Virus record (IMG/VR): IMGVR_UViG_3300025000_000475
Coordinates: 1-20,777 of that record
Reading direction: 5' to 3' (one strand)
Length of the DNA stretch: 20,777 nucleotides
Source of the DNA: a virus
Shown: positions 2,564 through 17,976 of the stretch, one piece after another
Layout of the letters: every line of letters begins with the position of its first letter
Numbering within the stretch: position 1 is the first letter of the stretch
Notes under the pieces: model-generated
Database searches by the model: none
What the model was told of the DNA's origin: nothing
What the model saw: only the letters and a program-made list of their open reading frames with translations
Made by a program: the position numbers and the translations under genes

Positions 2564-2591
2564 CTATAAATAAAAAACAGGAGGTATAGCC

Positions 2592-3020: not shown

Positions 3021-3028
3021 TTAAAAAC

Positions 3029-3057: not shown

Positions 3058-3072
3058 TAAGGAGGCAAGCTT

Positions 3073-4047
3073 GTGTCATATAATTCGAAAGTATATCGCA
3101 AACAAGGCGGGGATGAGCTAGTTGTTGCTAATGGTGGCATAATTACCGTCGAGTCTGGTGGACAAATAAATGTGATCGCTCCCAGCGGTGCGATCTATTT
3201 TGTTGATGCAAATATCACGGCCAGCGGGGACGGTCTTAGTTGGGGTGCAGCCTTTAAAACGATGGCCGAAGCTTTCTCTGTCATCTCAAACGGCGACAGC
3301 ATTTTATTTCGCGGCAAGATCCGCGAACAACTTACCGCGCCAGTACAGGTGTTTGACGTAACAATTATCGGCGCAGGCAATAGACCGCGCCACGCTGACA
3401 GCACTCCCGATGGTGGTCAGGACGCGGCCAATACATGGACAATTCCTGTTAGTGGAGCCACCACTGCCCCGCTTTGTAAGGTTCTTCAGCAGGGTTGGAG
3501 ATTTGTCAATATATTATTTGCTGGACCTACTGATTCTGATTGTATTCAGTTATACCGTGATGCTGGCGCGGATGATGCTGAACGCGACGCATCGCATGCT
3601 GAGTTCATTAACTGCCGCTTTGCCTCCGGGTATAATGGCATTAATGACCTTGGTGGATGTTTTGGGGTCCTAGTGCAGGGTTGCCGCTTTCAGGCGCTTA
3701 CTAACTTCGCCATTCTCGGGGTCGGCAATATAGGTGTTGGTCAGAGTATGTGGGTTGTTGAGGATAATCATTTCTATGGCTTCACTAACGGCGTAAAGAT
3801 TGCTGCGTTTGGCTGCCGGATTAAGGGTAATACCTTTACTGATGGTGGAACGCCCAATACCACTGTGGTACTTAATACCAATAATGGCGGCGGTGCCGAT
3901 AACTTTGTCGTGGATAACTACTTCCAGACCAGTACAGCTAATTTTAATACGCCTGACATTGTTGGTAGTGCTACGGACGTGTGGAATAATACCAGTATTG
4001 ACGGTACGGCTGATATGATTGGCCGCGAAGTTGGACAGCCAGCGTAG
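3073..4047 (+). CDS. Right-handed beta-helix protein, putative capsid fibre or surface-binding protein
   Basis: A 324-residue protein; GTG start with GGAGGCAAGC just upstream. After a short glycine-rich beta lead (GGIITVESGGQINV), the stretch from about residue 40 has the PL-6/pectate-lyase-like look: YFVDANITASGDGLSWGAAFKTMAEAF, then DSILFRGKIREQL. From residue 140 to 300 there are regular short strands ending in N or G turns (FINCRF, VQGCRF, VEDNHFYGF, IKGNTF, VVDNYF), the classical parallel beta-helix ladder. Such folds serve in phages as trimeric fibres or polysaccharide-binding or -cleaving spikes. Catalytic residues cannot be assigned. The location beside the capsid gene, rather than with the tail genes, points to display on the head. 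Confidence 0.75.
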   Translation: MSYNSKVYRKQGGDELVVANGGIITVESGGQINVIAPSGAIYFVDANITASGDGLSWGAAFKTMAEAFSVISNGDSILFRGKIREQLTAPVQVFDVTIIGAGNRPRHADSTPDGGQDAANTWTIPVSGATTAPLCKVLQQGWRFVNILFAGPTDSDCIQLYRDAGADDAERDASHAEFINCRFASGYNGINDLGGCFGVLVQGCRFQALTNFAILGVGNIGVGQSMWVVEDNHFYGFTNGVKIAAFGCRIKGNTFTDGGTPNTTVVLNTNNGGGADNFVVDNYFQTSTANFNTPDIVGSATDVWNNTSIDGTADMIGREVGQPA

Positions 4048-4068
4048 TACAGAAGGGAGGCATAATAA

Positions 4069-5922
4069 TTGGCCTTTAGACGTATTGAAGTTTTTGAAAA
4101 ATACACCTGTCTCTCTACTGACGTAAAAACAACCGTGGGCATAGCAAATGATTCAACTTGTCTGGAGACTAACACAGGTGATTTATATACCTTTGACGGA
4201 GCTGATTGGAGGCTTACAAATCAAAATGTAAGCCTTACAGATTACGAAGCTATTGACGTAGACACCGGTGCAGGTACCGTAAACGCATTACCTATAACCT
4301 GGCGCAAGTCAGGCGCAGGTGGGCCAGAATTTGGGACAAGTATAAACCCGGTGCGAACCGACACAACGGGATCCACCACACAACCGGTAAGTAATGCAAA
4401 TCTAGACATTGCCCTTTCCGCTTTACGTGATGCAATTACCGGCACTGACGCGGCTGCCCGTACCCAAGGTCAGATAGAGGCTGCTGTCCTTGCGCTCAGA
4501 ACAGCATCGACGCTGGACACTTTGGAAACTGTCATTACTGCCATTAAGGATACTGACGGCATAAAAAAAATAACCGACGCTGTAACCGTTGGCTCTTCTG
4601 TACTACCGACCGGCGCAGCGACAGAGGCCACTCTTGTAGCCATTGGTCTGCTATTGACTTCTTTGGATGGTAAGGATTACGCTACACAGGCAACTCTTGC
4701 AAATATACTTACCCAATTAAATACTACCGGCCTAAAAAAGATTATTGATGCACTTCCGGCCGGGGACAATAATATCGGTAATGTTGACGTTGTTACATTA
4801 CCGGCAATCCCCGCAGGGACTAACAATATTGGTGACGTTGATGTTGTATCTTCAGTATTACCGACAGGCGCAGCAGTTGCAGCAAAGCAGGACGCATTGA
4901 TCGCTAAAGACTTTGCTACAGAGGCTACTTTGGCATCCGTACAGGCCACATTAGCACAAGGCGGTATCCCGGCGACTACCTTAGAAACCACACACCAAAA
5001 CGCAGCAACGACAGACGGTAATGGTACTGCCGCAGCAGTTTCCGGTTATGGACCAATCGCTTTTCAGGTTACAGGCACATTCGACACAGCAACCGTAACG
5101 TATAAAGGTAGTGTGGACGGTACTAATTATGAAGCGTTACCCGGTACCTCTGCTGTTACTGCAGTAGGTATTTCTAAATTCGATGTGTCGGGGTATAAAT
5201 CAGTTTTGGCGGTAATTTCTGGTGCCGGTGCAAGTACGAGTCTAACTATTAAATCGCTTGCTGTGGGTGTCGCTAGACCGCTTACTGCCGATGTAATCAC
5301 AGTCGGTAAAGCCGCCGATAATGCCGCCGCTAATGGTAACCCCGTGCTGTTTGCAGGTAAGTATAATACTACTCCTGCTACTCGTGATGAGGGGGATGTA
5401 GTTACCCTCCAGACCGATGCACAAGGGAACTTACTTACCAAACTAACTGGTAGTAATGTTGAACAAATATTAAATCAAAATTTACCTACAAAAGCCAACC
5501 TAATTGGTATTAGTGATGGTACTAAAATACAGGCTATGCAGGGTAATACAGAAGGAGTATTGCTTACTAGTGTTGCTAGGACAACATCTATAAGTAGTCC
5601 AAATCAAGTGAATTATAACGCTCGTGGCGCAATGCTTTCATTGAATATTTCTGCAAATCCTGGCAATACAGAAACTTTACAAGTTTCTGTAGATGCAATT
5701 GATCCCGTTAGTGGTGGAACTAGAGCTATAGTAACATTTCCTCTGGTAAATGCATCTAATGCAAGATATTTTTATTATGTTTATCCTGGTATAATTGAAA
5801 CTTTGGACGCATCCGGGGTTAGTGTGCAAGCGTTACCTCTGCCGAAGCAATGGAAAGCGGCAGTTACACATTCTTCAACAAGTTCATGGACGTATTCGCT
5901 TAGTTATTCATATATTATATAG
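4069..5922 (+). CDS. Modular fibre-like virion protein, putative head fibre
   Basis: A 617-residue, low-charge, Ala/Thr/Gly-rich protein with a TTG start 8 bases after GGGAGG. Visible modules: an N-terminal cap (residues 1-75, with TCLETNTGDLYTFDGADW); repeated ATEATL/ATQATLA stretches (about 175-310) that look like a trimeric stalk; two copies of an [LI]PAGxNNIGxVDVV repeat (229-242 and 247-260); a beta-sandwich-like region (about 325-400); a GNPV...GDVVTLQTDAQGNLL module (423-457); and a C-terminal beta domain (about 500-617) with DPVSGG, YPG and a final TYSLSYSYII. The GNPV and PAG modules recur in the tail-cluster gene at 14919. Base composition drops sharply near 5440, inside the gene. 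A surface appendage is well supported; head attachment is inferred from position. Confidence 0.72.
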   Translation: MAFRRIEVFEKYTCLSTDVKTTVGIANDSTCLETNTGDLYTFDGADWRLTNQNVSLTDYEAIDVDTGAGTVNALPITWRKSGAGGPEFGTSINPVRTDTTGSTTQPVSNANLDIALSALRDAITGTDAAARTQGQIEAAVLALRTASTLDTLETVITAIKDTDGIKKITDAVTVGSSVLPTGAATEATLVAIGLLLTSLDGKDYATQATLANILTQLNTTGLKKIIDALPAGDNNIGNVDVVTLPAIPAGTNNIGDVDVVSSVLPTGAAVAAKQDALIAKDFATEATLASVQATLAQGGIPATTLETTHQNAATTDGNGTAAAVSGYGPIAFQVTGTFDTATVTYKGSVDGTNYEALPGTSAVTAVGISKFDVSGYKSVLAVISGAGASTSLTIKSLAVGVARPLTADVITVGKAADNAAANGNPVLFAGKYNTTPATRDEGDVVTLQTDAQGNLLTKLTGSNVEQILNQNLPTKANLIGISDGTKIQAMQGNTEGVLLTSVARTTSISSPNQVNYNARGAMLSLNISANPGNTETLQVSVDAIDPVSGGTRAIVTFPLVNASNARYFYYVYPGIIETLDASGVSVQALPLPKQWKAAVTHSSTSSWTYSLSYSYII

Positions 5923-5932
5923 GAGGAGTAAT

Positions 5933-6139
5933 ATGTTAAGCATAAAAATTTTTGAAAATTCTATAGAATATATATATATTATTACCAATAATGAAGATAG
6001 TTTTGAATATCGATGGGGGAAAATTCCTACTGAAGGTCAGACAGTAGAGGATTACATACAAAAATGCAAGCACGAAGCAGAACTTTTATCACAATATGAA
6101 ATTGACAAAAAGCAACCTCCACAGGAAATTACTATTTAA
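5933..6139 (+). CDS. Small hypothetical phage protein (68 residues)
   Basis: The ATG at 5933 follows AGGAGGAG by 5 bases and sits 10 bases after the fibre gene stop. The frame stays open further upstream, but there it lies inside the fibre gene. The protein begins with IKIFENSIEYIYIITNNED, aromatic and beta-like, and ends with a charged helix (VEDYIQKCKHEAELLSQYE). I recognise no family. It is AT-rich, like the 3' part of the upstream gene, so the two probably moved together. It may be a chaperone or partner of the fibre protein; this is a guess from adjacency. Confidence 0.6.
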   Translation: MLSIKIFENSIEYIYIITNNEDSFEYRWGKIPTEGQTVEDYIQKCKHEAELLSQYEIDKKQPPQEITI

Positions 6140-6160
6140 ACTAACGAAAATGCGTTAGTT
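6139..6160 (+). other. Intergenic hairpin 1 after the fibre cluster
   Basis: AACTAACG and CGTTAGTT are perfect reverse complements around a six-base AAAATG loop, starting at the stop codon of the 68-residue gene. Only GGTT follows, so terminator activity would be weak. Confidence 0.45.
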
Positions 6161-6168
6161 GGTTACAC

Positions 6169-6199
6169 AGACCGTCAAAAATTAACCGCCTGACGGTCT
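6169..6199 (+). other. Intergenic hairpin 2 before the connector gene
   Basis: AGACCGTCA (6169-6177) pairs perfectly with TGACGGTCT (6191-6199) around a 13-base loop. It comes 8 bases after hairpin 1 and ends 9 bases before the very strong ribosome site AGGAGGTGATC (6209-6219). It may be a processing site, an attenuator or a weak terminator. Confidence 0.45.
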
Positions 6200-6213
6200 T
6201 ACATATGTAGGAG

Positions 6214-6816
6214 GTGATCCACATTGCATTAAAATTAATCGCAGGGCCGACGGTTAATCCTGTCACGCTTGCTGAAGCAAAAGAGCATTGCCGGATTGAT
6301 GGTACCACAGAGGATACTTATATTGCAGGTCTTATATTAGCTGCTACAGAATATTGCGAAACACACCAGCGTCGGGCTTTTATAACTCAAACTTGGGATC
6401 TATGGCTTGATGATTGGCCTTATAAGGATCATATTAATATCCCACGACCTCCGCTGCAGTCAGTCGCATCGGTAAAGCATTATGACACGGAAAACACCGA
6501 ACATACCATGCTGGACACTGATTATCTTGTTGATGTTGTAAGTGAGCCAGGACGTGTTGTTTTGGGATATAGTAAACTATGGCCTACTGAGACTTTAAGG
6601 CCCGCAAATGCTGTCTGTGTACGTTTTACCGCTGGTTATGCGCCAGATGTTGAGGATCTGGCTGCTAATGTATCGCAGAAAATTAAGCAGGCTATTTTAC
6701 TGCTTGTCAGTCACTGGTATGAATACCGGGAGCCTGTGCAGGGTGGCAACATAAGTAAAGAAATAGAGTTCGCTGTTTCAGCCTTGCTTGGTCAGGACCG
6801 AATAATTTTAGTGTAG
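6214..6816 (+). CDS. Head-tail connector protein (HK97 gp6 / SPP1 gp15-like)
   Basis: This family forms the ring below the portal. The conserved opening ALKLIAGPTVNPVTLAEAKEHCRID and the following helices (IAGLILAATEYCETHQRRAF) are typical, as are a central Trp-rich segment and C-terminal helices that end in a short beta tail. The start is unusual. The GTG at 6214 is the only standard start in frame, but it lies inside the near-perfect ribosome site AGGAGGTGATC (6209-6219), and a stop (TAG, 6208) lies just upstream. The next sensible codon is ATT at 6223, 8 bases after GGAGG, which would give MALKLI as in relatives. I list the outer GTG as a conservative boundary. The next gene follows after 12 bases. 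Confidence 0.88.
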   Translation: MIHIALKLIAGPTVNPVTLAEAKEHCRIDGTTEDTYIAGLILAATEYCETHQRRAFITQTWDLWLDDWPYKDHINIPRPPLQSVASVKHYDTENTEHTMLDTDYLVDVVSEPGRVVLGYSKLWPTETLRPANAVCVRFTAGYAPDVEDLAANVSQKIKQAILLLVSHWYEYREPVQGGNISKEIEFAVSALLGQDRIILV

Positions 6817-6828
6817 GAGGCGGTTGCT

Positions 6829-7146
6829 TTGGGGGCGGGTAAATATAGACACAGAATAACAATTCAGCAACCGACCACTACCAAGGGCACAATGGGCGGC
6901 GTGAAAAATACCTGGTCTACCTTCGCAACTGTTCACGCGCAGAAAATTCACCAGGCGACAAGGGAGTTTTTCGCCGCACAGAAAGTTAATGCTGAGACAA
7001 CGGATTTGTTTGTTGTGCGGTATCTGGCAGGCGTTACAGCTAAGATGCGGGTTATTTTTGGCGACAGGACTTATGATATTATCGGGGCCCCGGATATGGA
7101 TGGTAGGCGGAGAGAGTTGTTTTTGTTGTGCAAGGAAGTGCTGTAG
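6829..7146 (+). CDS. Head closure / head-tail joining protein (SPP1 gp16-like)
   Basis: A 105-residue protein with a TTG start 8 bases after TAGGAGG. The pattern KYRHRITIQQPT...GGVKNTWSTFATVHAQKIH...REFFAAQKVNAETTDLFVVRYL...MRVIFGDRTYDIIGAPDMDGRRRELFLLCKEV is the standard head-tail adaptor beta-barrel of siphoviruses, which seals the portal channel and receives the tail. Its order after the connector and before the gp10-like gene is the usual one. The stop codon is immediately followed by the next ATG. Confidence 0.9.
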   Translation: MGAGKYRHRITIQQPTTTKGTMGGVKNTWSTFATVHAQKIHQATREFFAAQKVNAETTDLFVVRYLAGVTAKMRVIFGDRTYDIIGAPDMDGRRRELFLLCKEVL

Positions 7147-7557
7147 ATGAGCGCAGAAATTAGAGGTGAGCGAGAATTATACAAAGCCCTTAGACGCTTG
7201 GGAAACGCCGTAGATCCCGATAGGATTGAAAGAGTGCTGGTGCAAGCCGCTGAATTAATAACCGAGGATGCAAAAGCCAGGGCGCCAGTAAAAACTGGAA
7301 AGCTAAGAGACTCTATAAAAGTAAAGGTATGGATGAAACGTGGGGCTAAGACTGTCGTATTGGCCGCTGTCGATCATAATATAGCACCTCACAGTCACCT
7401 TGTTGAATACGGACACAAGCTATTTATTAAAGGTCGTAGGGTTGGCAGGGTAAGACCAAAGCCATTTTTTAGACCGGCCATTGATGCTAAAAGAGAGCAA
7501 GCAAGTCAGACAATACGCGATGGCATAAGGAGAATAATTGAGGAGGCAAGCCATTGA
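7147..7557 (+). CDS. HK97 gp10-like tail/neck protein
   Basis: A 136-residue protein starting directly after the previous stop. Family marks are the helical N-terminus ending in AAELITEDAKARAPVKTG, the KLRDSIKVKV strand, the HLVEYGHK motif and the C-terminal RPKPFFRPAIDAKREQ. Members of this family take part in tail completion or the neck, between the closure ring and the tail tube. The 3' end overlaps the next start by four bases (TTGA), which suggests translational coupling. Confidence 0.9.
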   Translation: MSAEIRGERELYKALRRLGNAVDPDRIERVLVQAAELITEDAKARAPVKTGKLRDSIKVKVWMKRGAKTVVLAAVDHNIAPHSHLVEYGHKLFIKGRRVGRVRPKPFFRPAIDAKREQASQTIRDGIRRIIEEASH

Positions 7558-7940
7558 GCATTGAAAAAGCTATATATGACGGCCTGTCTGCCGATGTTGC
7601 ACTTACGGCTTTAATTGGTGGTAGGGTTTATGCTGTTGACGCTCCTCAAGAAGCAGAATTGCCACATATCGTTTATTTTAAAGTAAGTCCTGGTAGACAG
7701 TATACACATGATGGCGACAGTAATCTACAAACACCAAGAATACAGGTGTCCTGCTACTCAGAAACATACGAGGGGGTTAAGGGTATTGTAGAAAAGGTAA
7801 TAAAAGCACTATACGGACTGCCTGCCACAAACGCCAATGTGCAGGCTGTTTTTGTTGAAGGCGAGCAGGATATGTTTGATTACGATACATCGGAATACCA
7901 TGTTCCAGTTGATTTTATAATCCATTATAGGGAGGTATAA
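7554..7940 (+). CDS. Tail terminator / tail completion protein (DUF3168-like)
   Basis: A 128-residue protein with a TTG start overlapping the upstream TGA, served by GAGGAGGCAAG (7540-7550). It shows the DUF3168 layout: an N-terminal helix (IEKAIYDGLSADVAL), LIGGRVYAVDAPQEAELPHIVYFKVS, a central IQVSCYSETYEGVKGIVEKVIKAL helix, and a terminal strand DTSEYHVPVDFIIHYRE. Such proteins cap the tail tube at the head end and set its final length. Its position just before the tail tube gene agrees. Confidence 0.88.
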   Translation: MSIEKAIYDGLSADVALTALIGGRVYAVDAPQEAELPHIVYFKVSPGRQYTHDGDSNLQTPRIQVSCYSETYEGVKGIVEKVIKALYGLPATNANVQAVFVEGEQDMFDYDTSEYHVPVDFIIHYREV

Positions 7941-7944
7941 ACTT

Positions 7945-8661
7945 ATGACCACAGCAGCAAACTCAGCATTTGGAAGTAAGCTAAAGCGAGCAGGCACGGC
8001 AATAGCCGAAATCAGTTCTATTGACGGTTTGAAATTAAGTGCTGAAACAATAGATGTTACAACACACGACTCTCCGGACGGCTACCGAGAATTCATACAG
8101 AGCCTTAGAGATGGCGGTGAAGTAGCAATTGAGGGTAACTTTATCCCTGGAGATACAAACGGCCAGATAGCTTTATTGACAGATTTCAATGCCGGTACAG
8201 CGCAATCTTTTCAAATAACTTTTCCTGACGCTACAGGAACATCGTGGACTTTTACCGCTATCGTTATAGGTTATGAGACAGGTGCTAAATTCGACGATAA
8301 ACTTACTTTTACCGCAACATTAAAAGTTACAGGCAAGCCCACTCTTGGCGTTACTGTATCTGCAGGATTGACAACTCCTTTCTTTGCTATTAGTAACTCA
8401 GCGGTAATAACTCCGGCCCAGGCGCAGGGAACGACTACATACGTTGCTACCGTTTTAACTGGCGTAACAAGTGTAACCGTAACACCTACTGCTACCGCAG
8501 GAACCATTACTGTAAATGGTAATACTGTAGCTACTGGAGTAGCATCAAGTGCTATTACTTTGGGTGCAGCAGGTAGTATAACGACTATTACTATTACCGT
8601 AACAGAAACTAACAAAACACCTAAGACATATACAATATATCTGTCTAGGGCCGCATCGTAG
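7945..8661 (+). CDS. Major tail tube protein with C-terminal cadherin/Ig-like domain
   Basis: The first 135 or so residues form the tube-building domain: short beta strands with ETIDVTTHDSPDGYREFIQSLRDGGEVAIEGNF, which is typical of lambda V-like and related tail tube proteins. Residues about 140-238 are an added beta-sandwich that fits the cadherin-like beta-sandwich pattern: TTYVATVLTGVTSVTVTPTA, then TITVNGNTVATGVASSAI and a closing TYTIYLSRA. Such domains decorate the outside of the tail tube and may bind cell-surface sugars weakly. The ATG start follows GGGAGGT. The protein is Thr-rich and has no membrane segment. Confidence 0.88.
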   Translation: MTTAANSAFGSKLKRAGTAIAEISSIDGLKLSAETIDVTTHDSPDGYREFIQSLRDGGEVAIEGNFIPGDTNGQIALLTDFNAGTAQSFQITFPDATGTSWTFTAIVIGYETGAKFDDKLTFTATLKVTGKPTLGVTVSAGLTTPFFAISNSAVITPAQAQGTTTYVATVLTGVTSVTVTPTATAGTITVNGNTVATGVASSAITLGAAGSITTITITVTETNKTPKTYTIYLSRAAS

Positions 8662-8671
8662 GAGGTAAGCA

Positions 8672-9037
8672 ATGGACGAGAGAGCAGTAGGAATACAACT
8701 GGATAAACCAAGAAAGTTAAGGTACACCTTCAATTCCGTGGCCGATCTCGAAGAAAAAGCAGGTACCGGAATAGGTGCCCTTATGTCTGAAGAAAAGATT
8801 GGATTTTATACGGTAAGGCTATTAACCTGGGCAGGTTTGAAGTGGCAGGATAAAGGACTTACCCTTGAGCGAACCGGAAACATGATTCAAACGTATTTTG
8901 ATAACGGTGGAGATTTTGTAACGCTGATGAACTTTATTACCGTGGCGCTGCAATTGTCCGGTATTTTGGGTAAGCCGACAGAAGAAGCTGTGGAAGAAAT
9001 TGACGAGGGAAACCAGAAGGCGAAGGCGCTAAATTAG
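8672..9037 (+). CDS. Tail assembly chaperone, short form (G-like)
   Basis: A 121-residue protein, ATG start after TAGGAGGT. The sequence has the fold expected of siphovirus tail assembly chaperones: a beta lead (KPRKLRYTFNSVADLEEKAG), then helices (GFYTVRLLTWAGLKW, NMIQTYFDNGGDFVTLMNFITVALQLSG), and a polar tail. These chaperones coat the tape measure protein during tail assembly and are not in the virion. Near its end the frame reads GAG GGA AAC, which contains the slippery heptamer GGGAAAC (9007-9013), so part of the ribosomes should shift by -1 and continue into the downstream frame, as in lambda G/GT. Confidence 0.88.
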   Translation: MDERAVGIQLDKPRKLRYTFNSVADLEEKAGTGIGALMSEEKIGFYTVRLLTWAGLKWQDKGLTLERTGNMIQTYFDNGGDFVTLMNFITVALQLSGILGKPTEEAVEEIDEGNQKAKALN

Positions 9038-9048
9038 CTGACCTTCGC
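9007..9048 (+). promoter_or_regulatory. Programmed -1 ribosomal frameshift signal
   Basis: The heptamer G GGA AAC (9007-9013) is in the right phase of the short chaperone frame (codons GGA and AAC) and fits X XXY YYZ. Six bases later starts a hairpin: GCGAAGG (9020-9026) with CCTTCGC (9042-9048), enclosing a second short stem GCTA/TAGC (9028-9031, 9035-9038). The -1 frame is open from 9004 to 9369, while frame 0 stops at 9037. Confidence 0.82.
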
Positions 9049-9369
9049 TTATTAGATCACATTGATAAACTGGAAGAATCGTCATATGAAATCGGCCTAA
9101 AGCCGTGGGAGTTTTGGCGGTTGACGCCTGCCGAATTTTCTAGGATTTTAAGCGGGTATAGTCGAAGTGAAAAACAAAAATGGTATAGGTTTGGTATGTT
9201 GGCGGCGGTAGTCGCTAACTGCCATAGAGGTGAAAAGACTAAGCCGTTCAAGCCGGAAGATTTTATGCCGGTTCCCGAGAAGAAAAAAGTAAGACAGGCA
9301 TGGGAAGATCAGCTTGAACAGGTTAAGATGTTGAATGTCGCGTTTGGTGGAGACGAAAACCCCGGTTAA
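9013..9369 (+). CDS. Tail assembly chaperone, T-like extension made by -1 frameshift
   Basis: This frame encodes the second domain of the chaperone. Translated from the slip site, the fused product would have about 232 residues (114 from frame 0 plus 118). The extension contains LADLRLLDHIDKLEESSYEIGLKPWEFWRLTPAEFSRILSGY, and WEFWRLTPAEF is a hallmark of this domain, followed by a helical, basic region. A TTG at 9121 could serve as a separate start, but the conserved part begins well before it, which favours frameshifting. The gene ends in the loop of a terminator and meets the reversed gene head-on. Confidence 0.8.
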   Translation, partial: PEGEGAKLADLRLLDHIDKLEESSYEIGLKPWEFWRLTPAEFSRILSGYSRSEKQKWYRFGMLAAVVANCHRGEKTKPFKPEDFMPVPEKKKVRQAWEDQLEQVKMLNVAFGGDENPG

Positions 9370-9381
9370 CTGCCGGGGTTT
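9357..9381. terminator. Bidirectional terminator between convergent genes
   Basis: AAACCCCGG (9357-9365) and CCGGGGTTT (9373-9381) are exact reverse complements around a seven-base loop. The + strand chaperone stop and the - strand gene stop both fall in the structure. On the - strand it is followed by TTTTC; on the + strand the T-run is interrupted (TTTAGTTTATT), so it should act better for the reversed gene. Confidence 0.7.
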
Positions 9382-10330
9382 AGTTTATTGGATAAATAGC
9401 TGCAGTCGTAACTGCCATTTCATTATTAAGCTTACCAATACCCCATCCTGGTGTTGTAGTTTCACAGTAGTAATAATTCGTCCCATTATGATTGTAAAAA
9501 GATAGCTTGTTACCAATAACCTGATTATCTTCAAAGGCAATGCCGACAGCCATATGGTTAGGATACGACAATAAGGAAACCTTATAACCCATATTCAGTA
9601 GGATTGATGCGTAAAGTACGGATTTACAGTCGCAGTCGCCATTTTCTATGATAGTTTGAGCCGGGAGTTGTGTTTCCTGTACTTCATATGGTATTGAACC
9701 AACAAAACTGAGCGCAAATTCAGCAGTATGAAAATAATCGAACTTACTTTTATGCGCATGGTCTTTTAATATTTCTGCCAGGAAATTAGTATATTTTAGA
9801 TTACTATCTTCAATAACCCATGAAACTAAGTTATTACTTACTCTTGAATTAATGAGAATTTTTATGTTATCTGGAGCACTAGACAGTAACATTTTTTGCC
9901 CATAACCACTTTTACTGTTTACATAAGCATTTAATGTTTTTTGAATACTTTTATCCCAGTTTAAAAGATCTATTGGCGCCCCAACAGTCCATCTATAAGA
10001 AAAACCATTATAATCCCAGCTAAAATCCCTGGTGATAGCATTGTTAAAGTTTAATGTTTGAAGCGCTTCGCTTTTGTTCATTGGTAGGTTTAATAGATTT
10101 GTATTTAAATTTAAATTACTACTATCAAAGTGAATGGTTTTAGATAGAGTAAACATAACTATCAAAAGCAATACGATTGAAAATATATTAATATAATTCT
10201 TATTTTTCTTGGGGTGTCCACGAGTTTCTAAATCCAAGAGTAATGCCCCACAGTTTTGACATCTTTTTAACCATGAGTAATTCTTGGTTTTGCATTTCGG
10301 ACAAATATAAATAGGTGGTTTATTTTGCAT
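9380..10330 (-). CDS. Membrane-anchored zinc-ribbon protein with transglutaminase-like domain (putative moron)
   Basis: A 316-residue protein, opposite to all surrounding genes. Residues 10-27 form a zinc ribbon (CPKC and CQNC). Residues about 48-64 are one hydrophobic membrane segment. The C-terminal part (about 195-316) fits a transglutaminase-like cysteine-peptidase fold: ENGDCDCKSVLYASILLNMGY (candidate catalytic Cys233), PNHMAVGI (His259), and YYYCETTTPGWGIG, which resembles archaeal/bacterial DUF553-type proteins. The ATG at 10330 has GGGAG 7 bases upstream and an extended -10 promoter just before it. The coding sequence is very AT-rich (13 G+C in 60 bases at 10081-10140). It is not a structural gene by layout. 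Expression from a prophage, acting at the host envelope, is plausible; the substrate is unknown. Confidence 0.8.
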   Translation of the reverse strand: MQNKPPIYICPKCKTKNYSWLKRCQNCGALLLDLETRGHPKKNKNYINIFSIVLLLIVMFTLSKTIHFDSSNLNLNTNLLNLPMNKSEALQTLNFNNAITRDFSWDYNGFSYRWTVGAPIDLLNWDKSIQKTLNAYVNSKSGYGQKMLLSSAPDNIKILINSRVSNNLVSWVIEDSNLKYTNFLAEILKDHAHKSKFDYFHTAEFALSFVGSIPYEVQETQLPAQTIIENGDCDCKSVLYASILLNMGYKVSLLSYPNHMAVGIAFEDNQVIGNKLSFYNHNGTNYYYCETTTPGWGIGKLNNEMAVTTAAIYPIN

Positions 10331-10360
10331 TTGACATCTCCCGTTTATTTTTATTATATC
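10331..10360 (+). promoter_or_regulatory. Possible + strand promoter for the tape measure gene
   Basis: A consensus -35 TTGACA (10331-10336) is followed after 18 bases by TATATC (10355-10360), or after 17 by TTATAT. It would restart late transcription after the reversed gene and terminator, and it overlaps the - strand promoter. The -10 is imperfect. Confidence 0.4.
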
Positions 10361-10361
10361 A
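10353..10361 (-). promoter_or_regulatory. Extended -10 promoter of the reversed gene
   Basis: On the - strand the sequence reads TGATATAAT, a perfect TG-N-TATAAT extended -10 element. Transcription would begin about 10346, giving a leader of about 16 bases that contains the GGGAG ribosome site. No clear -35 is seen, which extended -10 promoters can do without. Confidence 0.6.
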
Positions 10362-10389
10362 CTACTAATATGCAGAGAGGAGGGTAAAA

Positions 10390-13149
10390 ATGGCTTCTCC
10401 ATTAGCAAGTTTATTTGTAGTTCTGGGGCTAAACGGCGATCAGTTCTTGAGAAACCTTCGACGCACCCAGCGCGAAACGGCAAGGGCAACCAAGATGATA
10501 AAAGACGCTTTTGCCAGTATTAAGATGACAGCAGCAACACTGTCTGTAGCTATAGTGTCCGGCGCAGCCACTAAAGCAATGATGGATTACAACAGTCAAA
10601 TTGAGCAGGGCGCAATAGCTTTTGAAATACTTTTAGGCTCCGCAGCAAAGGCAAATAAATTCATGCAGGACTTGGCCGACTTCGCTGCTAAAACTCCTTT
10701 TCAGTTTAATGACGTGCAAAATGCCGCTAAAAAACTATTGGCTTTTCAGTTTCAGGCAAAAGAAGTTTTACCAATGCTGCAAGCAATAGGCGATGCAGCG
10801 GCAATGAACGGTATGAGTCCAGATATAATTGACGGAATCGTAACCGCACTAGGTCAAATGAAAGCCAAAGGCAAAGCTTCGGCGGAAGAACTGAACCAAT
10901 TAGCTGAACGAAATATACCTGCAAGCGCTATTCTCCAAAAAGAACTTGGCCTGACTGGTGAGCAAGTAGCTAACATAGGCGATCAAGCTATATCCGTCGA
11001 TAGGGTTATTGCTGCCTTGCTTAGAGGTATGAACAAAACATACTCCGGCACGATGGATAAGATGTCTCAAACAATCAGCGGTCTATTCTCAACGCTAAAA
11101 GACAATATAATGATGCTCGGTGAAAGTGTATTTGCCGGACCATTCGAAAGATTAAGAGAATCTCTAAAATCTCTGACAGAAACATTATCAGATGTAGTCG
11201 ATACAGTCAGAGCTGGCGGCATCAAAGAGGCTTTTGAAAAGTTTTTTCCCAAAGACCTGCAACAGCCTTTTTTAGTTTCAATGGGCCTAATTAAAGATAT
11301 TTTTGTTAATATCGGCGGTACAATCAGCAACGTCCTGAGCGCATTAAAACCTTTGATATTAACTTTAACACCTTTATTTTTAGGCTTTGTGGATGTGCTT
11401 GCAAAAATGGCACATTGGCTGTCCGAAGTAAAACCACTTGTGATAGCTGTGACTGCAGCTTTGTTCGGATTATATGCGGTAGAGAAAACAATTGCCATAG
11501 TTTTAGCACTAAATAAGGCTTTAGAGGCATTATTCCTGGTTTTAAGTAAAAACTGGGTTGTATTGGTGATAGCGGTCCTGTTAGCTTTGGCGTTATCTAT
11601 TGATGCAGTACAGCAGAAAATTAATGCTTTATTTAAGTCTATAACCGACAACATCAAACTACCCGGCGTTGAAAACAAGCCGATGGATGATTATACGAAT
11701 TCTACTGATGACGCAAAGAAAAAGACAGACGAATTAAATAAGTCGCTAAAGAAAAATGTGCAGAGTTTTGACGAACTGTATCAAATCGAGTCCGATGCGG
11801 CAGCCCAAATAGGTAACACAATACCGAATACTGGAACTGAGAAACCAGAAGATAAAACAACACCTATCACATTACCCGATCCTACTGATTTGGAAGATAA
11901 ATTTCGCAACATAACAATGCCACCTATAACGTGGGGAGGTATTTTGCCAGATCCGACGCCATTACTGGACGGCTTTATAAGGGCAGTGCAGCGGGCACAA
12001 GAAATGATAGTAGCTTCATACGCAAACATAAATACCGGCATTAATAATATGATGCTGTCTGTTTCTGATGCTATGTCTATGGCAGCGGCAAACGCCGTTT
12101 CCGCATGGAGCGTAATCGAGTATACGATTGTTGATGCAATAGGCAGAATACTGGAATCGGCACAGACCGGATTTAGCGCGATGAACACTAATATACAAGC
12201 GTCAAGCCAGGGTATGCAGGAAAATATCCAGACATCGATAGATACAGTTGAAACAAGTCTATCCAGCTCCTGGGAGTCAATTAAAAATTACTCATCGGTA
12301 GCCTGGGAATTTATTAGATCCGGCGTATTTAGTGCATGGGAAGTAATAAAAACAGATACGGCAACAGCTTGGGATAACATAAAAAATAGCGTAAATACAG
12401 CATGGGAATCCATAAAGACCACATCAGTCACTGCATATGAAGCAATAAAATCAGGCGCAACTACTGCCTGGGAGATACTAAAAACTAACACACAGATAGC
12501 ATATGAAACCATAAAAACCCGCACCAATACGGCATGGGAAAGCATGAAAACAACTGCAGGGGCAGCATATGAAACGATAAAATCAGGCGCAATAGCAGCC
12601 TGGGAAACTTTAAAATCGAATACTGTTACGATATTCGCATCCATAAAAAGCAATGTCATAGCTGTCTTTGATAGTATGGTTAGTAAGGCAAAAGCAGCCT
12701 GGGAAAAGATAAAAAGTTATTTTGGCGGCGGTAGTGGTGGATCCGGTGGTTCCGGAAGTAACGTTGTTCAGTTCCCTTTTAGGCAAACAGAAACGGGAAC
12801 GGTATACGATCCAAGTAAATTGCCTGGTGCTGCCATATTACCTACTGGCGGTTTTATGCCAGGGATACCAGCAGGCGGCCTCATATCTATCCCAGCACTT
12901 GCAGAAGGTGGCATAGTAAGCAGTGATACGCTAGCTATGATAGGTGAGGGAATAAACAAGGAGGCAGTTGTCCCTCTTGATAGCAATGGGGGGATAATCG
13001 ACTATGGACGCATCGAAGCGGCGTTTATGAACGCGATGCAAACTCTAAATGTAACTGCCAAAATTGATACAAGCCTATCCAACATGACACAATTAACAAG
13101 GGCGCTACAGCCGGCAATGGCAAACGAATCTGCAAGGCGGGGTGGTTAA
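10390..13149 (+). CDS. Tail tape measure protein
   Basis: A 919-residue protein, the longest in the window, with an ATG start after GAGGAGGG. Residues about 65-245 form the conserved tape measure domain (MMDYNSQIEQGAIAFEILLGSAAKANKFMQDLADFA, then KGKASAEELNQLAERNIPA). Residues about 345-405 are strongly hydrophobic and may help DNA pass the membrane. Residues about 627-777 are fourteen 11-residue helical repeats, then a Gly/Ser linker (FGGGSGGSGGSGSN). The C-terminus has the usual AEGGIVSS...MIGEGINKEAVVPLD motif. It sets tail length; at about 1.5 angstrom per residue the tail would be near 140 nm. The tail chaperones normally sit directly upstream, but here the reversed gene intervenes. Confidence 0.93.
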   Translation: MASPLASLFVVLGLNGDQFLRNLRRTQRETARATKMIKDAFASIKMTAATLSVAIVSGAATKAMMDYNSQIEQGAIAFEILLGSAAKANKFMQDLADFAAKTPFQFNDVQNAAKKLLAFQFQAKEVLPMLQAIGDAAAMNGMSPDIIDGIVTALGQMKAKGKASAEELNQLAERNIPASAILQKELGLTGEQVANIGDQAISVDRVIAALLRGMNKTYSGTMDKMSQTISGLFSTLKDNIMMLGESVFAGPFERLRESLKSLTETLSDVVDTVRAGGIKEAFEKFFPKDLQQPFLVSMGLIKDIFVNIGGTISNVLSALKPLILTLTPLFLGFVDVLAKMAHWLSEVKPLVIAVTAALFGLYAVEKTIAIVLALNKALEALFLVLSKNWVVLVIAVLLALALSIDAVQQKINALFKSITDNIKLPGVENKPMDDYTNSTDDAKKKTDELNKSLKKNVQSFDELYQIESDAAAQIGNTIPNTGTEKPEDKTTPITLPDPTDLEDKFRNITMPPITWGGILPDPTPLLDGFIRAVQRAQEMIVASYANINTGINNMMLSVSDAMSMAAANAVSAWSVIEYTIVDAIGRILESAQTGFSAMNTNIQASSQGMQENIQTSIDTVETSLSSSWESIKNYSSVAWEFIRSGVFSAWEVIKTDTATAWDNIKNSVNTAWESIKTTSVTAYEAIKSGATTAWEILKTNTQIAYETIKTRTNTAWESMKTTAGAAYETIKSGAIAAWETLKSNTVTIFASIKSNVIAVFDSMVSKAKAAWEKIKSYFGGGSGGSGGSGSNVVQFPFRQTETGTVYDPSKLPGAAILPTGGFMPGIPAGGLISIPALAEGGIVSSDTLAMIGEGINKEAVVPLDSNGGIIDYGRIEAAFMNAMQTLNVTAKIDTSLSNMTQLTRALQPAMANESARRGG
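12268..12723 (+). repeat. Fourteen 33-base (11-residue) repeats in the tape measure gene
   Basis: The units follow [A/S][W/Y]ExIKxxxxx, for example AWEVIKTDTAT, AWESIKTTSVT, AYEAIKSGATT, AYETIKTRTNT. The first begins at 12268 and the last (partial, nine residues) at 12697, exactly 13 periods of 33 bases apart with no indel. The pattern fits a right-handed hendecad helix bundle within the tail lumen. Confidence 0.85.
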
Positions 13150-13488
13150 ATGAAAATAAACAGCACGACGATAAGAACCCCGACCACTTTTAAACCGGAA
13201 ACTTTTAAACTGTCAAAATCAGGACGTGTAGCAAATGGCGACATGACATTTGAGACTATTGCTATTAAGAAAAAATTTACCTTGTCCTATAACGACATAA
13301 CTGGCGCAGAACTTAAAGCCATACTTGATATACTTATGAGCACAACAAACTTTTTTACCTTTGAGTATCCCGATGAAAGTACGACAGCAACAGCGACAGT
13401 TTATGTAGGGGCGATACCTCGCGAACTTTGGACACTGACTGGTGGCAGGCGTTATAGCGGGGTAGAATTCAGTTTGATTGAAAAGTAG
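13150..13488 (+). CDS. DUF6711-like small tail protein
   Basis: A 112-residue protein whose ATG directly follows the tape measure stop. It starts with MKINSTTIRTPTTFK and contains SKSGRVANGDMTFETIAIKKKFTLSYNDITGAELKAILDIL, FFTFEYPDES and a closing YSGVEFSLIEK. This layout is one I associate with the DUF6711 family found between tape measure and tail hub genes in Gram-positive siphophages. A distal-tail or tape-end role is probable from position. It is all beta with one central helix; there is no signal peptide. Confidence 0.7.
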   Translation: MKINSTTIRTPTTFKPETFKLSKSGRVANGDMTFETIAIKKKFTLSYNDITGAELKAILDILMSTTNFFTFEYPDESTTATATVYVGAIPRELWTLTGGRRYSGVEFSLIEK

Positions 13489-13496
13489 GTGAGGCA

Positions 13497-14909
13497 ATGA
13501 TAACCGTATCAAGCGCCTATGAGACAGCCATTAATGCCAGTAGTCGCTACATAGTACCAAAGGTAGAAGTATATTTTGACGGAGACAGTAACCCTCCGAC
13601 AATTTTTACTGGTAGCGGTTTGACTAAAATCAGATTCTTAGAAGAAGCAAGCGCCGACAACGGAAATCCGCTTGGCCTTGTTTCGTCAAACGATATTGAA
13701 CTGAGCTTCGATAACAGCTCTCGTAACTTCACACCGACAAACACGGCTGGATTATATTACGGCAAACTTAAACCTAACGTGCTGGTTAAACCTTACCTGG
13801 GCCTTGAATTGCCGGGAGCGACATATGAATACATTCCTCTTGGCGTATTCAGAACAGGAGACTGGAGCAGTCCTTCGGGAACAGTCGAGGCAACAGTAAC
13901 CTGCTTTGACAGGTTATATGAGATTGGTGACAAGGACGTGCCAATGTTGCCGGTCAAACAGAATACTACCGTTGGAGAATTGTTTGTACTGCTGTTTACG
14001 GCACTTGGAATAACTGATTTCAGCGTTGACGCAAGCCTAAATCAGCCTATCCCCATTGACTGGTTACCTCAGGGCAATGTTCGTAACGCACTACAAACAC
14101 TCGCCGTAGCCGGTAACTGCAGTGTCGCCACTAACAGGTACGGCTATATCGTTGTCCGGTCAAACTTTATTACGGGGACAGTGGTGGAAACCTGGACAGA
14201 TGCAAACCAAATATTTACCGCAGAAAATCCACAGAAATACCTGGATACCTACAGTAAGGTAAAGATTAACTATTATCAGCCGTATATTAAGCCATCAGCT
14301 TCATTACTTAAGGTCGAAAATCTTAAAATACCCAACGGTGGCCTGACACTAACGAATATCAGCTTCACTACTGGCCCAGTGGCAACCGTTGATCAGGTTA
14401 TATTATCCGGTGCCGTTAATTCTCTGGTTGATAGCGTTGAATATGGGGCATGGGGCATAACCGTCACTATAACTAATACAAGCGTAGAGGAAACAGTAAC
14501 ACTTGAAGTCACCGGCAAAGCTATCGACAGCATATCATCAAGCTATGAATTGCAGGACGATACGGCAGTGGCGAGTTTCGGGGAGAAAGTTTTCCCGGTG
14601 GAGAATTACCTCATCCAATCCCTGGACGTTGCAAAAACCTACGCTGCTGAATTACTGCAATACGTCAAGGATCCGTTGGCTAATATCAGCTTAAGCATCC
14701 GGGGCAATCCGGCGGTTGAAGTCGGGGACGTTATTCAAATACAAAACGACACCGATAAAATAGGGACCGTTGATTTTGTACCTACTAGGATAACATTGAA
14801 CTATGATGGTGCCTTAGACTCTACTGTAGAAGGCAGAAAAGTCGCGGCAAATACTCGTTATACATGGGCTTATATCGGACCTGGAATGTATGAATATGTT
14901 GAATATTGA
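13497..14909 (+). CDS. Tail hub / tail tip protein
   Basis: A 470-residue, mainly beta protein. The ATG follows AGGTGAGG. The N-terminal part (SAYETAINASSRYIVPKVEVYFDG, then SSNDIELSFDNSSRNFTP) and the segment YEYIPLGVFRTGDWSS...ATVTCFDRLYEIG, with later QTLAVAGNCSVATNRYGYIVVRS, resemble gp27/hub-type phage tail proteins, as does the C-terminal LSIRGNPAVEVGDVIQIQND. These form the ring at the tail tip around which receptor-binding parts attach. No peptidase or lytic domain is visible. It lies between the DUF6711-like gene and the adhesin cluster, as expected for a hub. Confidence 0.75.
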   Translation: MITVSSAYETAINASSRYIVPKVEVYFDGDSNPPTIFTGSGLTKIRFLEEASADNGNPLGLVSSNDIELSFDNSSRNFTPTNTAGLYYGKLKPNVLVKPYLGLELPGATYEYIPLGVFRTGDWSSPSGTVEATVTCFDRLYEIGDKDVPMLPVKQNTTVGELFVLLFTALGITDFSVDASLNQPIPIDWLPQGNVRNALQTLAVAGNCSVATNRYGYIVVRSNFITGTVVETWTDANQIFTAENPQKYLDTYSKVKINYYQPYIKPSASLLKVENLKIPNGGLTLTNISFTTGPVATVDQVILSGAVNSLVDSVEYGAWGITVTITNTSVEETVTLEVTGKAIDSISSSYELQDDTAVASFGEKVFPVENYLIQSLDVAKTYAAELLQYVKDPLANISLSIRGNPAVEVGDVIQIQNDTDKIGTVDFVPTRITLNYDGALDSTVEGRKVAANTRYTWAYIGPGMYEYVEY

Positions 14910-14918
14910 GGTGATGAA

Positions 14919-15578
14919 ATGCCAACATTGCTTGTGGATGATAATAGCAAACCGATCCCGCAGTACCAAAATGTAGCGGGTACCGCTTACGAGGCTTTAA
15001 AAGGTGAAAATAACGGTATCTATATAACTGGTGACGAGGCCCACGACGCAACAGATGCAGGCAATCCAGTCAAAATAGGCGGTAAGGCGGCTTCCTCTGC
15101 GCCACCAGCTGTAACTGCCGGTGATAGGGTAAACGCATACTTCGACCTAAGCGGCAGGCTTGTTGTGTTGATTGATACGGCCTTGCCAGCCGGGACAAAC
15201 ATAATCGGTAAATTCGGTATTGACCAAACAACACCCGGCACAACAAACGGGGTGCAAGTTGTAGCGCCTCTCCCCGCGGGTACGAATAATATCGGCATAG
15301 TGAATAAATCGGCCTACAATTTTCTAAATGTCACTGCCGACGTGCAGGTAAAAGGCAGTGCAGGTAAGTTAAGAAAGGTCATTATCGGCAAAGTAACCGT
15401 GGCCGGCGATCTAACCCTTTACGACAGTCTTACTGAAACCGGAACCGTTATAGCTACTCTAGGACTTGAAACAACCGGAAACCCTAGAGAGTTAGAATTT
15501 GACACCACATTTGCCACGGGACTGTACGCCGGATTTGACGCAAGTCTGGTCGGAAATATAGCTTTTGTCTATGAATAG
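14919..15578 (+). CDS. Tail appendage protein sharing modules with the capsid-cluster fibre
   Basis: A 219-residue protein; ATG after GAGGTGATG. Modules by residue: an N-terminal anchor (1-45, DDNSKPIPQYQNVAGTAYEAL); GNPVKIGGK (48-56) with GDRVNAYFDLSGRLV (68-82); two PAG repeats (LPAGTNIIGKFGI at 89-101, LPAGTNNIGIVN at 118-129); and a C-terminal beta domain (about 130-219, KLRKVIIGKVTVAGDLTLYDS, ending NIAFVYE). The GNPV and PAG units match those in the gene at 4069, 10 kb away, next to the capsid gene. This is likely a trimeric tail appendage or an adaptor for one. Host-receptor binding is inference. Confidence 0.65.
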   Translation: MPTLLVDDNSKPIPQYQNVAGTAYEALKGENNGIYITGDEAHDATDAGNPVKIGGKAASSAPPAVTAGDRVNAYFDLSGRLVVLIDTALPAGTNIIGKFGIDQTTPGTTNGVQVVAPLPAGTNNIGIVNKSAYNFLNVTADVQVKGSAGKLRKVIIGKVTVAGDLTLYDSLTETGTVIATLGLETTGNPRELEFDTTFATGLYAGFDASLVGNIAFVYE

Positions 15579-15589
15579 AGGTGTAGGTA

Positions 15590-15922
15590 TTGGCCGAACT
15601 CTATAGCGCAAATAAAATAACCAACGGTGGTGCAGAGATAGGGAATACTACAGGTTGGACAATCTCCGAAGTAACCGTTGTTACGGGCGGCACAGAAGGG
15701 ACAAAATGTTTCAATATGGCCGATACCGCTAGCATGAGTCAAACGGTTAACGCCGGAGGAATACAACCTCCGGACATAAAAGCATCGTTTACATTTCTGC
15801 CAAAGTTTGAACCGACAGAAGGAGATCCCAAAATATACGCTCGTGTTGCTGTAGAGCATGAGTATGCCGATGGTAGCGCTGATTCGTTTACCATACCTTG
15901 TCGGTTTGATGCGGGGGTGTAG
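15590..15922 (+). CDS. Carbohydrate-binding-like protein, N-terminal half of a possibly split gene
   Basis: A 110-residue frame with a TTG start (AGGTGTAGG upstream). The opening NKITNGGAEIGNTTGWTISEV, then GTKCFNMADTASMSQTVNA, is the classic start of a CBM/galactose-binding-like beta-sandwich (N-G-x-E...GW...G...S-Q-T-V). The following strands (IKASFTFLPKF, KIYARVAVEHEYADGSADSFT) continue the fold, but the closing strands are missing. They appear after the stop, in the same frame, in the next gene (GGGYFDDFKLRL). Only TAG at 15920-15922 and GAT separate the two. Either this is one broken gene or a two-chain domain made by coupled translation. Surface or glycan binding is inferred from the fold. 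Confidence 0.6.
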   Translation: MAELYSANKITNGGAEIGNTTGWTISEVTVVTGGTEGTKCFNMADTASMSQTVNAGGIQPPDIKASFTFLPKFEPTEGDPKIYARVAVEHEYADGSADSFTIPCRFDAGV

Positions 15923-15925
15923 GAT

Positions 15926-16471
15926 ATGGTATGGGTAGTCGGTGAACTAAATAACCTAGCAATTGAATGGCTGGCAATAGAAGCTATATGTCCAGTAAGC
16001 GACAGTAAAGAATTGCTCAGCACTAAAATAAGAGCTGTCACAAAAAATTTAACAGGTGGCGGGTACTTCGATGATTTTAAACTCCGCCTTAATTTAACAA
16101 ACGAAAAAATAACAGGTAGCGAAAAAATATTCCTGCCCATTGAGGAATCGGCGGGAGATACCGAATTCCCTGTTTTCGGGGCTGTAGTTGATGCTCAAAT
16201 TGTCGCGGCGCATATTGTACCTAAATCAACGATTACTGGCAATACAGGCAGTCCTATGGTGCTGGAACTGGTTAATAAGAATACAGGCGATACAATCTGC
16301 ACTAAGACGTTTATTACAGGCACGAATGCCCCGGCGTATGAAGTAACAGACTTCGGTCCGGCGGATGCGGATGCAGGGGAGATAGATTTCGGATATGGCG
16401 TGTCGCTTAGAAAAACCGGTGGCATGACGTTACCGGAGTGCTTGATTATCGTGGAATGGAATTTGAGGTGA
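15926..16471 (+). CDS. Tail adhesin protein, C-terminal half of the possibly split gene
   Basis: A 181-residue frame starting with ATG 4 bases after the TAG of the previous gene and in the same phase. Residues 1-60 end in LLSTKIRAVTKNLTGGGYFDDFKLRLNL; the YFDDFKLRL strand is typical of the last strand of a CBM-like sandwich whose first strands are upstream. Residues about 75-181 form a separate beta domain (DTEFPVFGAVVDAQIVAAHIV, VSLRKTGGMTLPECLIIVEWNLR). A ribosome site is arguable: GGGGGTG lies about 8 bases upstream, otherwise only GGA next to the ATG. Role: probable receptor-binding or baseplate appendage; no enzyme motif is seen. Confidence 0.6.
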   Translation: MVWVVGELNNLAIEWLAIEAICPVSDSKELLSTKIRAVTKNLTGGGYFDDFKLRLNLTNEKITGSEKIFLPIEESAGDTEFPVFGAVVDAQIVAAHIVPKSTITGNTGSPMVLELVNKNTGDTICTKTFITGTNAPAYEVTDFGPADADAGEIDFGYGVSLRKTGGMTLPECLIIVEWNLR

Positions 16472-16475
16472 TGAT

Positions 16476-17915
16476 TTGAGTTTTACAGCGACACAAATAT
16501 CTTTTACGGTTAAGAAAAAACGCGATGTCGATATAGTTAAATATGGTAATAAGATTTTTACAGTATGGACAGAAGAGATTGATACCTATAATGATCATCA
16601 AATATTTTTAGGTATCTTAGATTTAGATACAAATATTTCTTCTGTAACACAAATAACTTCTACCGTTAAACCCAGGAGAACTGCCAGGGTAAAAGTTTAT
16701 AACAATAAAGTGTATGTTGTTTATTTAGAGCAGGCTTATTATAGTGGTTATGCTCGTTATAATTTATTTTTAACTGTTTGCGATTTAGACGGTAGTAATA
16801 TTACTATTACGCGATTAACCGATACTTTGAACGATGAAAACCGACACTGTATAGGCATCCATAACGATAAGATATATCTAACTTACGAGGAATATAATCC
16901 CAGTATAAAAATTGCAGTTGCATCGTGCGATCTAGACGGTAGTAATTTTACTTATACACTTAATTCTGTAGAAAATGCTTTTGCCCCTACTTTTGTTATT
17001 GATGCCAGTAAATTATGGGTAACATATTCGGATGATTTAGCGGGCGGTAGCACTTATCAAATTTTTCTCGCCTCATGCAACTTAGACGGTAGTGGTTGGA
17101 TTACTTTACAGAAAACTAACACCAATTTCAGGAAAAGATATCCCGTTATATGCAAAACTAATGATAAATTTTTTTGGTGCTGGGAAGAAAGAGATGCTAA
17201 TAGTCATTACCAACTTTGGACTGCCGAAAGTGATTTAACTGGTGAAAATTTTATTGCGACACAGAGAACTTTTTACTTAGACGACGATGTTCAGTATCCT
17301 AAAATAACAGCTAATAGTGAGAATGTATTTGTATCTTGGGCTCACTGGATTTTGACTGATACCTGGCATAAGCAGATATTTACAGGTACTATGGACATAA
17401 ATGGAGAAAATTGGAGCGAGGAACAAAATACAAGTGACGCAACAAGCAAATTTTACCCTTGTATTTTCGCTGACGATGAAAAACTCTGTTACGGTATCTT
17501 AGATAGCACGGTTAATAACGTAAATACTGTGCAAGTTTGGATTGGCATAATAAGTCTATATACACCACAACCATTAGTCTCAGATCCGCCCATAATCTTA
17601 AGTCCGATACCTATTAGATGCGCTAAACCGATGGTAATACTGCAAGCACCAACACCAGTAGGAGCGCCTTGGCTGCTACATTTCAAGCTGGAGAGCTTTT
17701 CAGATACGGAGGGGACTATCCCAATAGCAGTAGTGGACAGCAGTATTAACCCTGAGCTATTCGAATACAGCACAGACAACGGCTTAATTTGGACTGCTTT
17801 TCCGGAGACTGGTTTACCGCCGGATAAATATGATTCACTGGTGCGGGCAAGGTGCGAGGTAGGCCCAAGGCAACAAGTCTGGCTAAAAGCGAGTGTAGGA
17901 GCAGAGGACGCATAG
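16476..17915 (+). CDS. Beta-propeller tail adhesin
   Basis: A 479-residue protein with a TTG start after GAGGTGATG. Residues 1 to about 365 hold six similar units of about 55 residues, each with a strand such as KIFTVWTEE, KVYVVYLEQ or KIYLTYEEY, then a turn motif like CDLDGSNIT, CNLDGSGW, SDLTGENF or DINGENW. This is the look of a six-bladed beta-propeller. The rest (about 370-479) is a different beta domain (PWLLHFKLESF, LFEYSTDNGLIWTAFP, QQVWLKASVG), probably for assembly. The 5' part is AT-rich (18 G+C of 60 at 16561-16620) while the 3' part is not (31 of 60 at 17641-17700), so the propeller seems recently exchanged. Last of the tail genes: a likely receptor-binding protein. Confidence 0.7.
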   Translation: MSFTATQISFTVKKKRDVDIVKYGNKIFTVWTEEIDTYNDHQIFLGILDLDTNISSVTQITSTVKPRRTARVKVYNNKVYVVYLEQAYYSGYARYNLFLTVCDLDGSNITITRLTDTLNDENRHCIGIHNDKIYLTYEEYNPSIKIAVASCDLDGSNFTYTLNSVENAFAPTFVIDASKLWVTYSDDLAGGSTYQIFLASCNLDGSGWITLQKTNTNFRKRYPVICKTNDKFFWCWEERDANSHYQLWTAESDLTGENFIATQRTFYLDDDVQYPKITANSENVFVSWAHWILTDTWHKQIFTGTMDINGENWSEEQNTSDATSKFYPCIFADDEKLCYGILDSTVNNVNTVQVWIGIISLYTPQPLVSDPPIILSPIPIRCAKPMVILQAPTPVGAPWLLHFKLESFSDTEGTIPIAVVDSSINPELFEYSTDNGLIWTAFPETGLPPDKYDSLVRARCEVGPRQQVWLKASVGAEDA

Positions 17916-17951: not shown

Positions 17952-17976
17952 ATCAGTAAAATCAAGGGTTAAAAGT

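Follow-up and report, generated by a model that had tools for sequence, protein, structure and literature searches.

A reverse-strand gene at the tail chaperone/tape measure junction of a virus contig, probably captured from Bacillota and predicted to encode a membrane-anchored transglutaminase-like protein

The window analyzed here is the whole 20,777-nucleotide stretch of the IMG/VR virus record IMGVR_UViG_3300025000_000475. Between its tail chaperone genes and its tape measure gene lies a gene at 9380-10330 on the - strand, encoding the protein P0001. The identification of this gene as a phage moron is well supported by its insertion, its own control signals, and its divergent composition. 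We read it as a reverse moron, a captured Bacillota gene for a membrane-anchored enzyme that would alter the host surface and most likely exclude other tailed phages at DNA injection. We give this reading as a whole a probability of roughly 45%.

The reverse gene and its control signals

The moron gene runs opposite to the tail operon, and every other long gene in positions 1-18979 is on the + strand. The features of the locus are the following:

8672-9037, + strand: first upstream tail chaperone gene (phrog_2115 tail protein, E 1.1e-18)
9121-9369, + strand: second upstream tail chaperone gene, chaperone T (PF06223 Phage_tail_T, E 1.6e-8)
9357-9381, both strands: hairpin, a putative two-way terminator for chaperone T on the + strand and the moron gene on the - strand, overlapping both stop codons
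9380-10330, - strand: moron gene, an intact open reading frame (ORF) for the 316-residue P0001, with its ATG at 10330-10328
10338-10342, - strand: Shine-Dalgarno site GGGAG, 7 nucleotides 5' of the ATG, read from the sequence
10353-10361, - strand: extended -10 promoter element TGATATAAT, a perfect consensus by sequence pattern
10390-13149, + strand: downstream tape measure gene (PF20155 TMP_3, E 2.7e-28)

The original prediction, made from the sequence before this analysis, described a reversed gene between the tail chaperones and the tape measure gene with its own extended -10 promoter and a shared terminator. The profile matches of the neighboring genes agree with this position, and both signals are found at the sequence level, TGATATAAT at 10361-10353 on the - strand and the hairpin at 9357-9381. 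The hairpin is stable in either direction, with a folding z of -4.6 on the + strand and -3.1 on the - strand. As it also lies in the path of late transcription between chaperone T and the tape measure gene, the late operon would depend on read-through or on another promoter. Perfect extended -10 elements have two matches in the window versus 1.35 expected by chance on both strands, and by an arithmetic estimate the chance of one on the correct strand in a given ~60 bp is roughly 0.2%. The only other perfect TGNTATAAT in the window is at 5787-5795 on the + strand, 5' of a small ORF rich in A+T (about 5930-6139), within a stretch of lowered GC in which the nearest related phage differs. RNA families and tRNAs were searched for across the window, and none was found.

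The composition of the gene is equally distinct. Its G+C content (GC) of 32.9% and its GC at third codon positions (GC3) of 0.28 are both the lowest among all genes measured in the window, and a GC this low is reached in only 0.25% of 951-bp windows. The flanking genes have a GC of 0.43-0.46, compared with 0.33 in the moron gene. A recount returned the contrast reported earlier, 13 of 60 G+C at 10081-10140 and 26 of 60 at 10861-10920. With an insert between genes that adjoin in relatives, signals of its own, and the lowest GC, the arrangement is that of a moron, as had been proposed.

Protein architecture and predicted fold

P0001 has three predicted parts, the last of which contains three catalytic-type residues. 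These residues were compared in an alignment of 19 rows, P0001 and 18 relatives ranging from phage to haloarchaea. All of the following features are on the - strand:

10250-10303: C4 zinc ribbon CPKC-x10-CQNC (Cys10, 13, 24, 27), predicted to be cytoplasmic, from the sequence and weak profiles
10136-10186: membrane helix, residues 49-65, from hydropathy and a helix in the model
9383-10042: transglutaminase-like (TG) domain, residues 97-316, from alignments, the model, a fold search, and Bacillota relatives
9632-9634: codon of Cys233, the predicted nucleophile (G-D-C), invariant in 19/19 rows
9554-9556: codon of His259, the predicted general base, invariant in 19/19 rows
9461-9463: codon of Glu290, predicted to be the third, acidic member of the set, with E in 18 rows and D in one

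The zinc ribbon matches PF00641 at E 5.5e-5, with 22.8 bits against a cut-off of 27 bits, and PF12773 at E 0.018, also below its cut-off. Two CxxC pairs are present in ribbon spacing, but this part of the model is of low confidence. Helix 49-65 is the sole membrane segment, and because it is preceded by a Lys/Arg-rich stretch and followed by an acidic or neutral one, P0001 is predicted to have its N-terminus inside and its C-terminus outside the cell. Relatives bear signal peptides, lipobox-like starts, SLH domains, or membrane anchors, which likewise suggests that the domain works outside the cell.

The AlphaFold model has a predicted local distance difference test (pLDDT) score above 90 for the greater part of the C-terminal region. 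Its fold matches are mostly transglutaminases, PNGase, LapG, bacterial TG-like proteases, and the pseudomurein endoisopeptidases PeiW/PeiP. Almost all PDB matches are TG-like, with a VIA-align Z of about 7-8.5 over 116-143 residues. The Foldseek E-values are weak, the best being 0.015. P0001 itself has no match to the Pfam profiles PF01841 or PF04473, and two relatives pass the PF04473 cut-off of 20.5 bits (L039 with 21.2 and L115 with 24.0). Given the weak Foldseek E-values, the moderate Z scores, and these passing members, the sequence family is a firmer argument for a TG domain than the structure. In a tblastn search of plasmids, haloarchaeal and Monoglobus proteins share GDC, HM, and YYxxETTxxGWxxG with P0001.

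Membership of P0001 in the transglutaminase-like superfamily is thus supported by the retained Cys-His-acid order and the predicted TG-type fold. From its sequence, P0001 is a predicted enzyme with a conserved Cys233-His259-Glu290 set of catalytic type. The proposed combination of a C4 zinc ribbon, a single membrane segment, and an external TG-like domain is well supported by homology, hydropathy, and the model, with the zinc ribbon profile below its cut-off. Structure prediction, suggested earlier as a check, returned a TG-like fold, and all three residues of catalytic type are conserved.

Relatives and probable origin

Cellular relatives were sought in 398 genomes from a single phylum, sampled around a genome that bears a prophage. 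The phylum is called Bacillota here because it also includes a Clostridia bacterium genome (L057). Relatives of P0001 are found in 27 of the 398 genomes, the best with 48% identity and E 1e-57. The closest ones combine a signal peptide, copper-amine-oxidase-N domains (PF07833), and a TG domain. Three others (L117, L118, and L121) align with P0001 residues 8-308, taking in the zinc ribbon, the membrane helix, and the TG domain, and lie in a chromosomal setting with no phage genes in view.

In the tree, P0001 falls inside a 14-member clade of cellular Bacillota proteins with support of 100/99. A single clade of P0001 and the zinc-ribbon relatives is neither supported nor rejected by the approximately unbiased (AU) test (p 0.126); the whole architecture may therefore have been inherited together, or the TG domain alone. 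A pattern scan of viral contigs and tblastn of GenBank phages found no close phage relative of P0001, and a PHROGs search gave no usable match. Those relatives that do occur in viral contigs are distant, being membrane/TG proteins with unrelated surroundings. A cellular origin is the simplest reading of these sequence comparisons, and the gene was probably captured from a Bacillota host. The earlier view that P0001 is not a virion part is well supported by its nesting in the Bacillota surface-protein clade, by its absence from the nearest phage, and by the TG-like fold.

Several further TG-like genes were seen in other settings. Small membrane-anchored proteins of the TG-like superfamily are encoded in viral contigs at 4539-5327 of L042 and at 4677-5489 of L044 and L045, in unrelated neighborhoods. 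In haloarchaeal plasmids, TG-like genes directly adjoin grpE (2854-3930 of L038 and 2896-3657 of L041), with an Hsp70-family gene nearby in L038 and a tubulin-like gene nearby in L041, forming a recurring neighborhood. The only PADLOC match, a weak one to BrxB (E 0.031), was taken as chance.

The chaperone/tape measure junction in other phages

The nearest related phage (L046/L047), whose capsid is 91% identical, lacks the moron gene at this place. It carries ~2.3 kb of different cargo at the junction, followed by an unrelated tape measure gene. This cargo begins with two - strand genes, for an 85-residue zinc-ribbon membrane protein and a Cro/C1-type regulator, and continues with + strand genes, including an HNH-like one. 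The comparison with related phages that had been proposed finds other cargo where the moron gene is absent, and neither of the two outcomes named beforehand as counterevidence (the gene at this position in every relative without lysogen expression, or a predicted fold lacking a catalytic cleft) was encountered. In the relative L069, the junction is a multi-gene cargo site. Cargo at the junction in other sequences is as follows:

L069 (contig IMGVR_UViG_3300025011_000043), 1-2679: zinc-ribbon membrane protein and Cro/C1-type regulator genes on the - strand; HNH-like and phrog_4652 genes on the + strand
L089 and L092, junction, - strand: zinc-ribbon membrane proteins
L097, junction, - strand: membrane-anchored copper-amine-oxidase-N protein
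L104, junction, - strand: DUF4389 membrane protein
L108, junction, - strand: protein without a name

The last five are the loci with such a reverse gene among 25 Bacillota tape measure loci. These genes are unrelated to P0001, mostly encode membrane-anchored proteins that are mostly unrelated to one another, and in several cases have a TATAAT, a Shine-Dalgarno site, or a terminator hairpin. Further reverse ORFs, in L090, L091, L098-L100, and L181, were set aside because they probably only shadow forward genes, and a junction gap in L006 was rejected as a moron because it holds a forward gene. In another relative, L049, a secreted copper-amine-oxidase-N and DUF4352 protein is encoded at 16697-17332 on the - strand, one gene upstream of the junction, with the major tail protein gene on one side and the first chaperone gene on the other.

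The original prediction held that this junction is nearly always uninterrupted. That is true in general, with 32 of 34 chaperone T loci gapless and a reverse gene in only one of 51 tape measure clusters from viral contigs (the same protein as in L097). The junction is nonetheless a known moron site, as HK97 gp15, annotated as 'moron product', is located exactly there, and the nearest phage and the five Bacillota loci also have inserts at it.

Comparison with known systems

HK97 gp15 blocks DNA injection, a form of superinfection exclusion. Like the moron gene, it lies exactly between tail chaperone and tape measure, has an annotated terminator after it, and encodes a single-helix membrane protein. 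It differs from P0001 in having 62 residues, lying on the forward strand, being YebO-like (PF13974, phrog_5031), and lacking a zinc ribbon or an enzyme domain, and the two are unrelated in sequence.

The Bacillota copper-amine-oxidase-N/TG surface proteins are homologous to the TG domain of P0001 at up to 48% identity, and L117, L118, and L121 are homologous over nearly the full length, zinc ribbon and membrane helix included. Unlike P0001, these relatives are chromosomal and outside tail operons, and most use a signal peptide and stalk domains rather than a zinc ribbon and helix. TG-like cysteine proteases and endopeptidases such as LapG and PeiW/PeiP are extracytoplasmic and cleave adhesins or pseudomurein. 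In structure searches LapG, 3isr, 3kd4, and PeiW/PeiP share the fold and the Cys-His-acid order of P0001, but only 9-15% sequence identity, and PeiW/PeiP are archaeal virus lysins rather than membrane-anchored morons. TcaA-type proteins have the same order of zinc ribbon, membrane helix, and external domain; their external part is not TG-like, and homology is not established. The relative L117 has a weak NCBIfam TcaA match (E 0.047), far below the cut-off.

To our knowledge, neither Ltp of TP-J34 nor Sie2009 of Tuc2009 has a zinc ribbon or enzyme domain. A literature search for superinfection exclusion by TG-like or zinc-ribbon proteins found no such papers in the library searched. The tape measure protein has a part in the action of two phage proteins: Ltp of Streptococcus phage TP-J34 acts via it (PMC10883804), and Tab, a prophage moron product encoded elsewhere, acts on it (PMC10884400).

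Proposed function and alternatives

In the proposed mechanism, the gene of a Bacillota surface enzyme was captured by a phage as a self-contained unit with a promoter, ribosome site, and terminator. On the opposite strand and with its own promoter, it could be expressed while the late genes are off. We infer the expression state, activity, substrate, and exclusion role of P0001 as follows: it would be made in a lysogen or carrier state and held in the cytoplasmic membrane by its one helix, with the zinc ribbon inside and the TG-like Cys-His-Glu domain outside. By analogy with known TG-like proteins, an outward enzyme of this type could act on the envelope or on an incoming tail; it would probably cleave or cross-link an amide bond, either in an envelope component or in an arriving phage protein, changing the host surface. 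As HK97 gp15, a membrane protein encoded at this junction, blocks DNA injection, P0001 is a reasonable candidate for exclusion. A bolder form is enzymatic superinfection exclusion, in which a membrane-anchored, outward-facing enzyme (a cysteine protease or transamidase) attacks the arriving tape measure or tail-tip protein; this form, in which the junction is a dedicated Bacillota-phage site for reverse surface guards, seems improbable.

Several observations weigh against the proposed mechanism. The promoter is without a good -35 and its site is not listed by an automated promoter scan. At the predicted nucleophile most relatives read GDCED, and P0001 reads GDCDC. It has no match to the HK97 gp15 families PF13974 and phrog_5031, and gp15 is encoded on the other strand. 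Neither the window nor a 61.6-kb relative has a match to the tyrosine or serine integrase families (phage_integrase, resolvase), which leaves a lysogenic life hypothetical. The 61.6-kb relative does encode a Cro/C1-type regulator next to the cargo that it carries, and another protein that is XRE-like.

The lack of an integrase match in these two sequences also favors use during lytic infection, in which the phage is perhaps not temperate and an early envelope change aids lysis or blocks secondary infection. The promoter-like signal would permit such early expression. Late transcription would collide with a gene that lies inside and opposite to the late operon, though, and lysis genes are present elsewhere (amidase, 18239-18979), making this account unlikely. 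A recently captured host gene with no phage role would explain the strongly divergent composition and the lack of a close phage relative in the collections searched. It would not be expected to keep an intact frame, all catalytic-type residues, and a well-formed promoter, ribosome site, and terminator, and unrelated sequences repeatedly carry reverse genes at this junction; such a neutral passenger is very unlikely. Lysogenic conversion without exclusion is a possible explanation, if a doubtful one. The enzyme would process or anchor wall- or S-layer-associated proteins, as its cellular relatives may do, and give the host some other advantage. Most relatives are indeed unremarkable surface proteins that bear copper-amine-oxidase-N or SLH domains and are encoded in the chromosome outside any phage setting, whereas membrane morons recur at the junction and HK97 gp15, the only tested one known to us, excludes phages.

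Other features of the window

After the lysis genes, a second reverse cassette (19308-20776, - strand) encodes a DUF3440 protein, a GNAT acetyltransferase, and a ParB_N-like protein. The DUF3440 protein matches PF11922 at E 7.9e-31 and is cut by the window end. The cassette resembles an IbrA/IbrB-type pair. At 16476-17915 on the + strand lies a gene of 479 codons, probably of the tail-fiber region, with the second lowest GC and no Pfam or PHROG match.

Significance

The recurring reverse-strand cargo site just 5' of the tape measure gene can be mined for uncharacterized membrane proteins. Even without exclusion, phages move a family of cellular surface enzymes. If exclusion is true, P0001 would be the first TG-fold enzyme known to us as a prophage surface guard.
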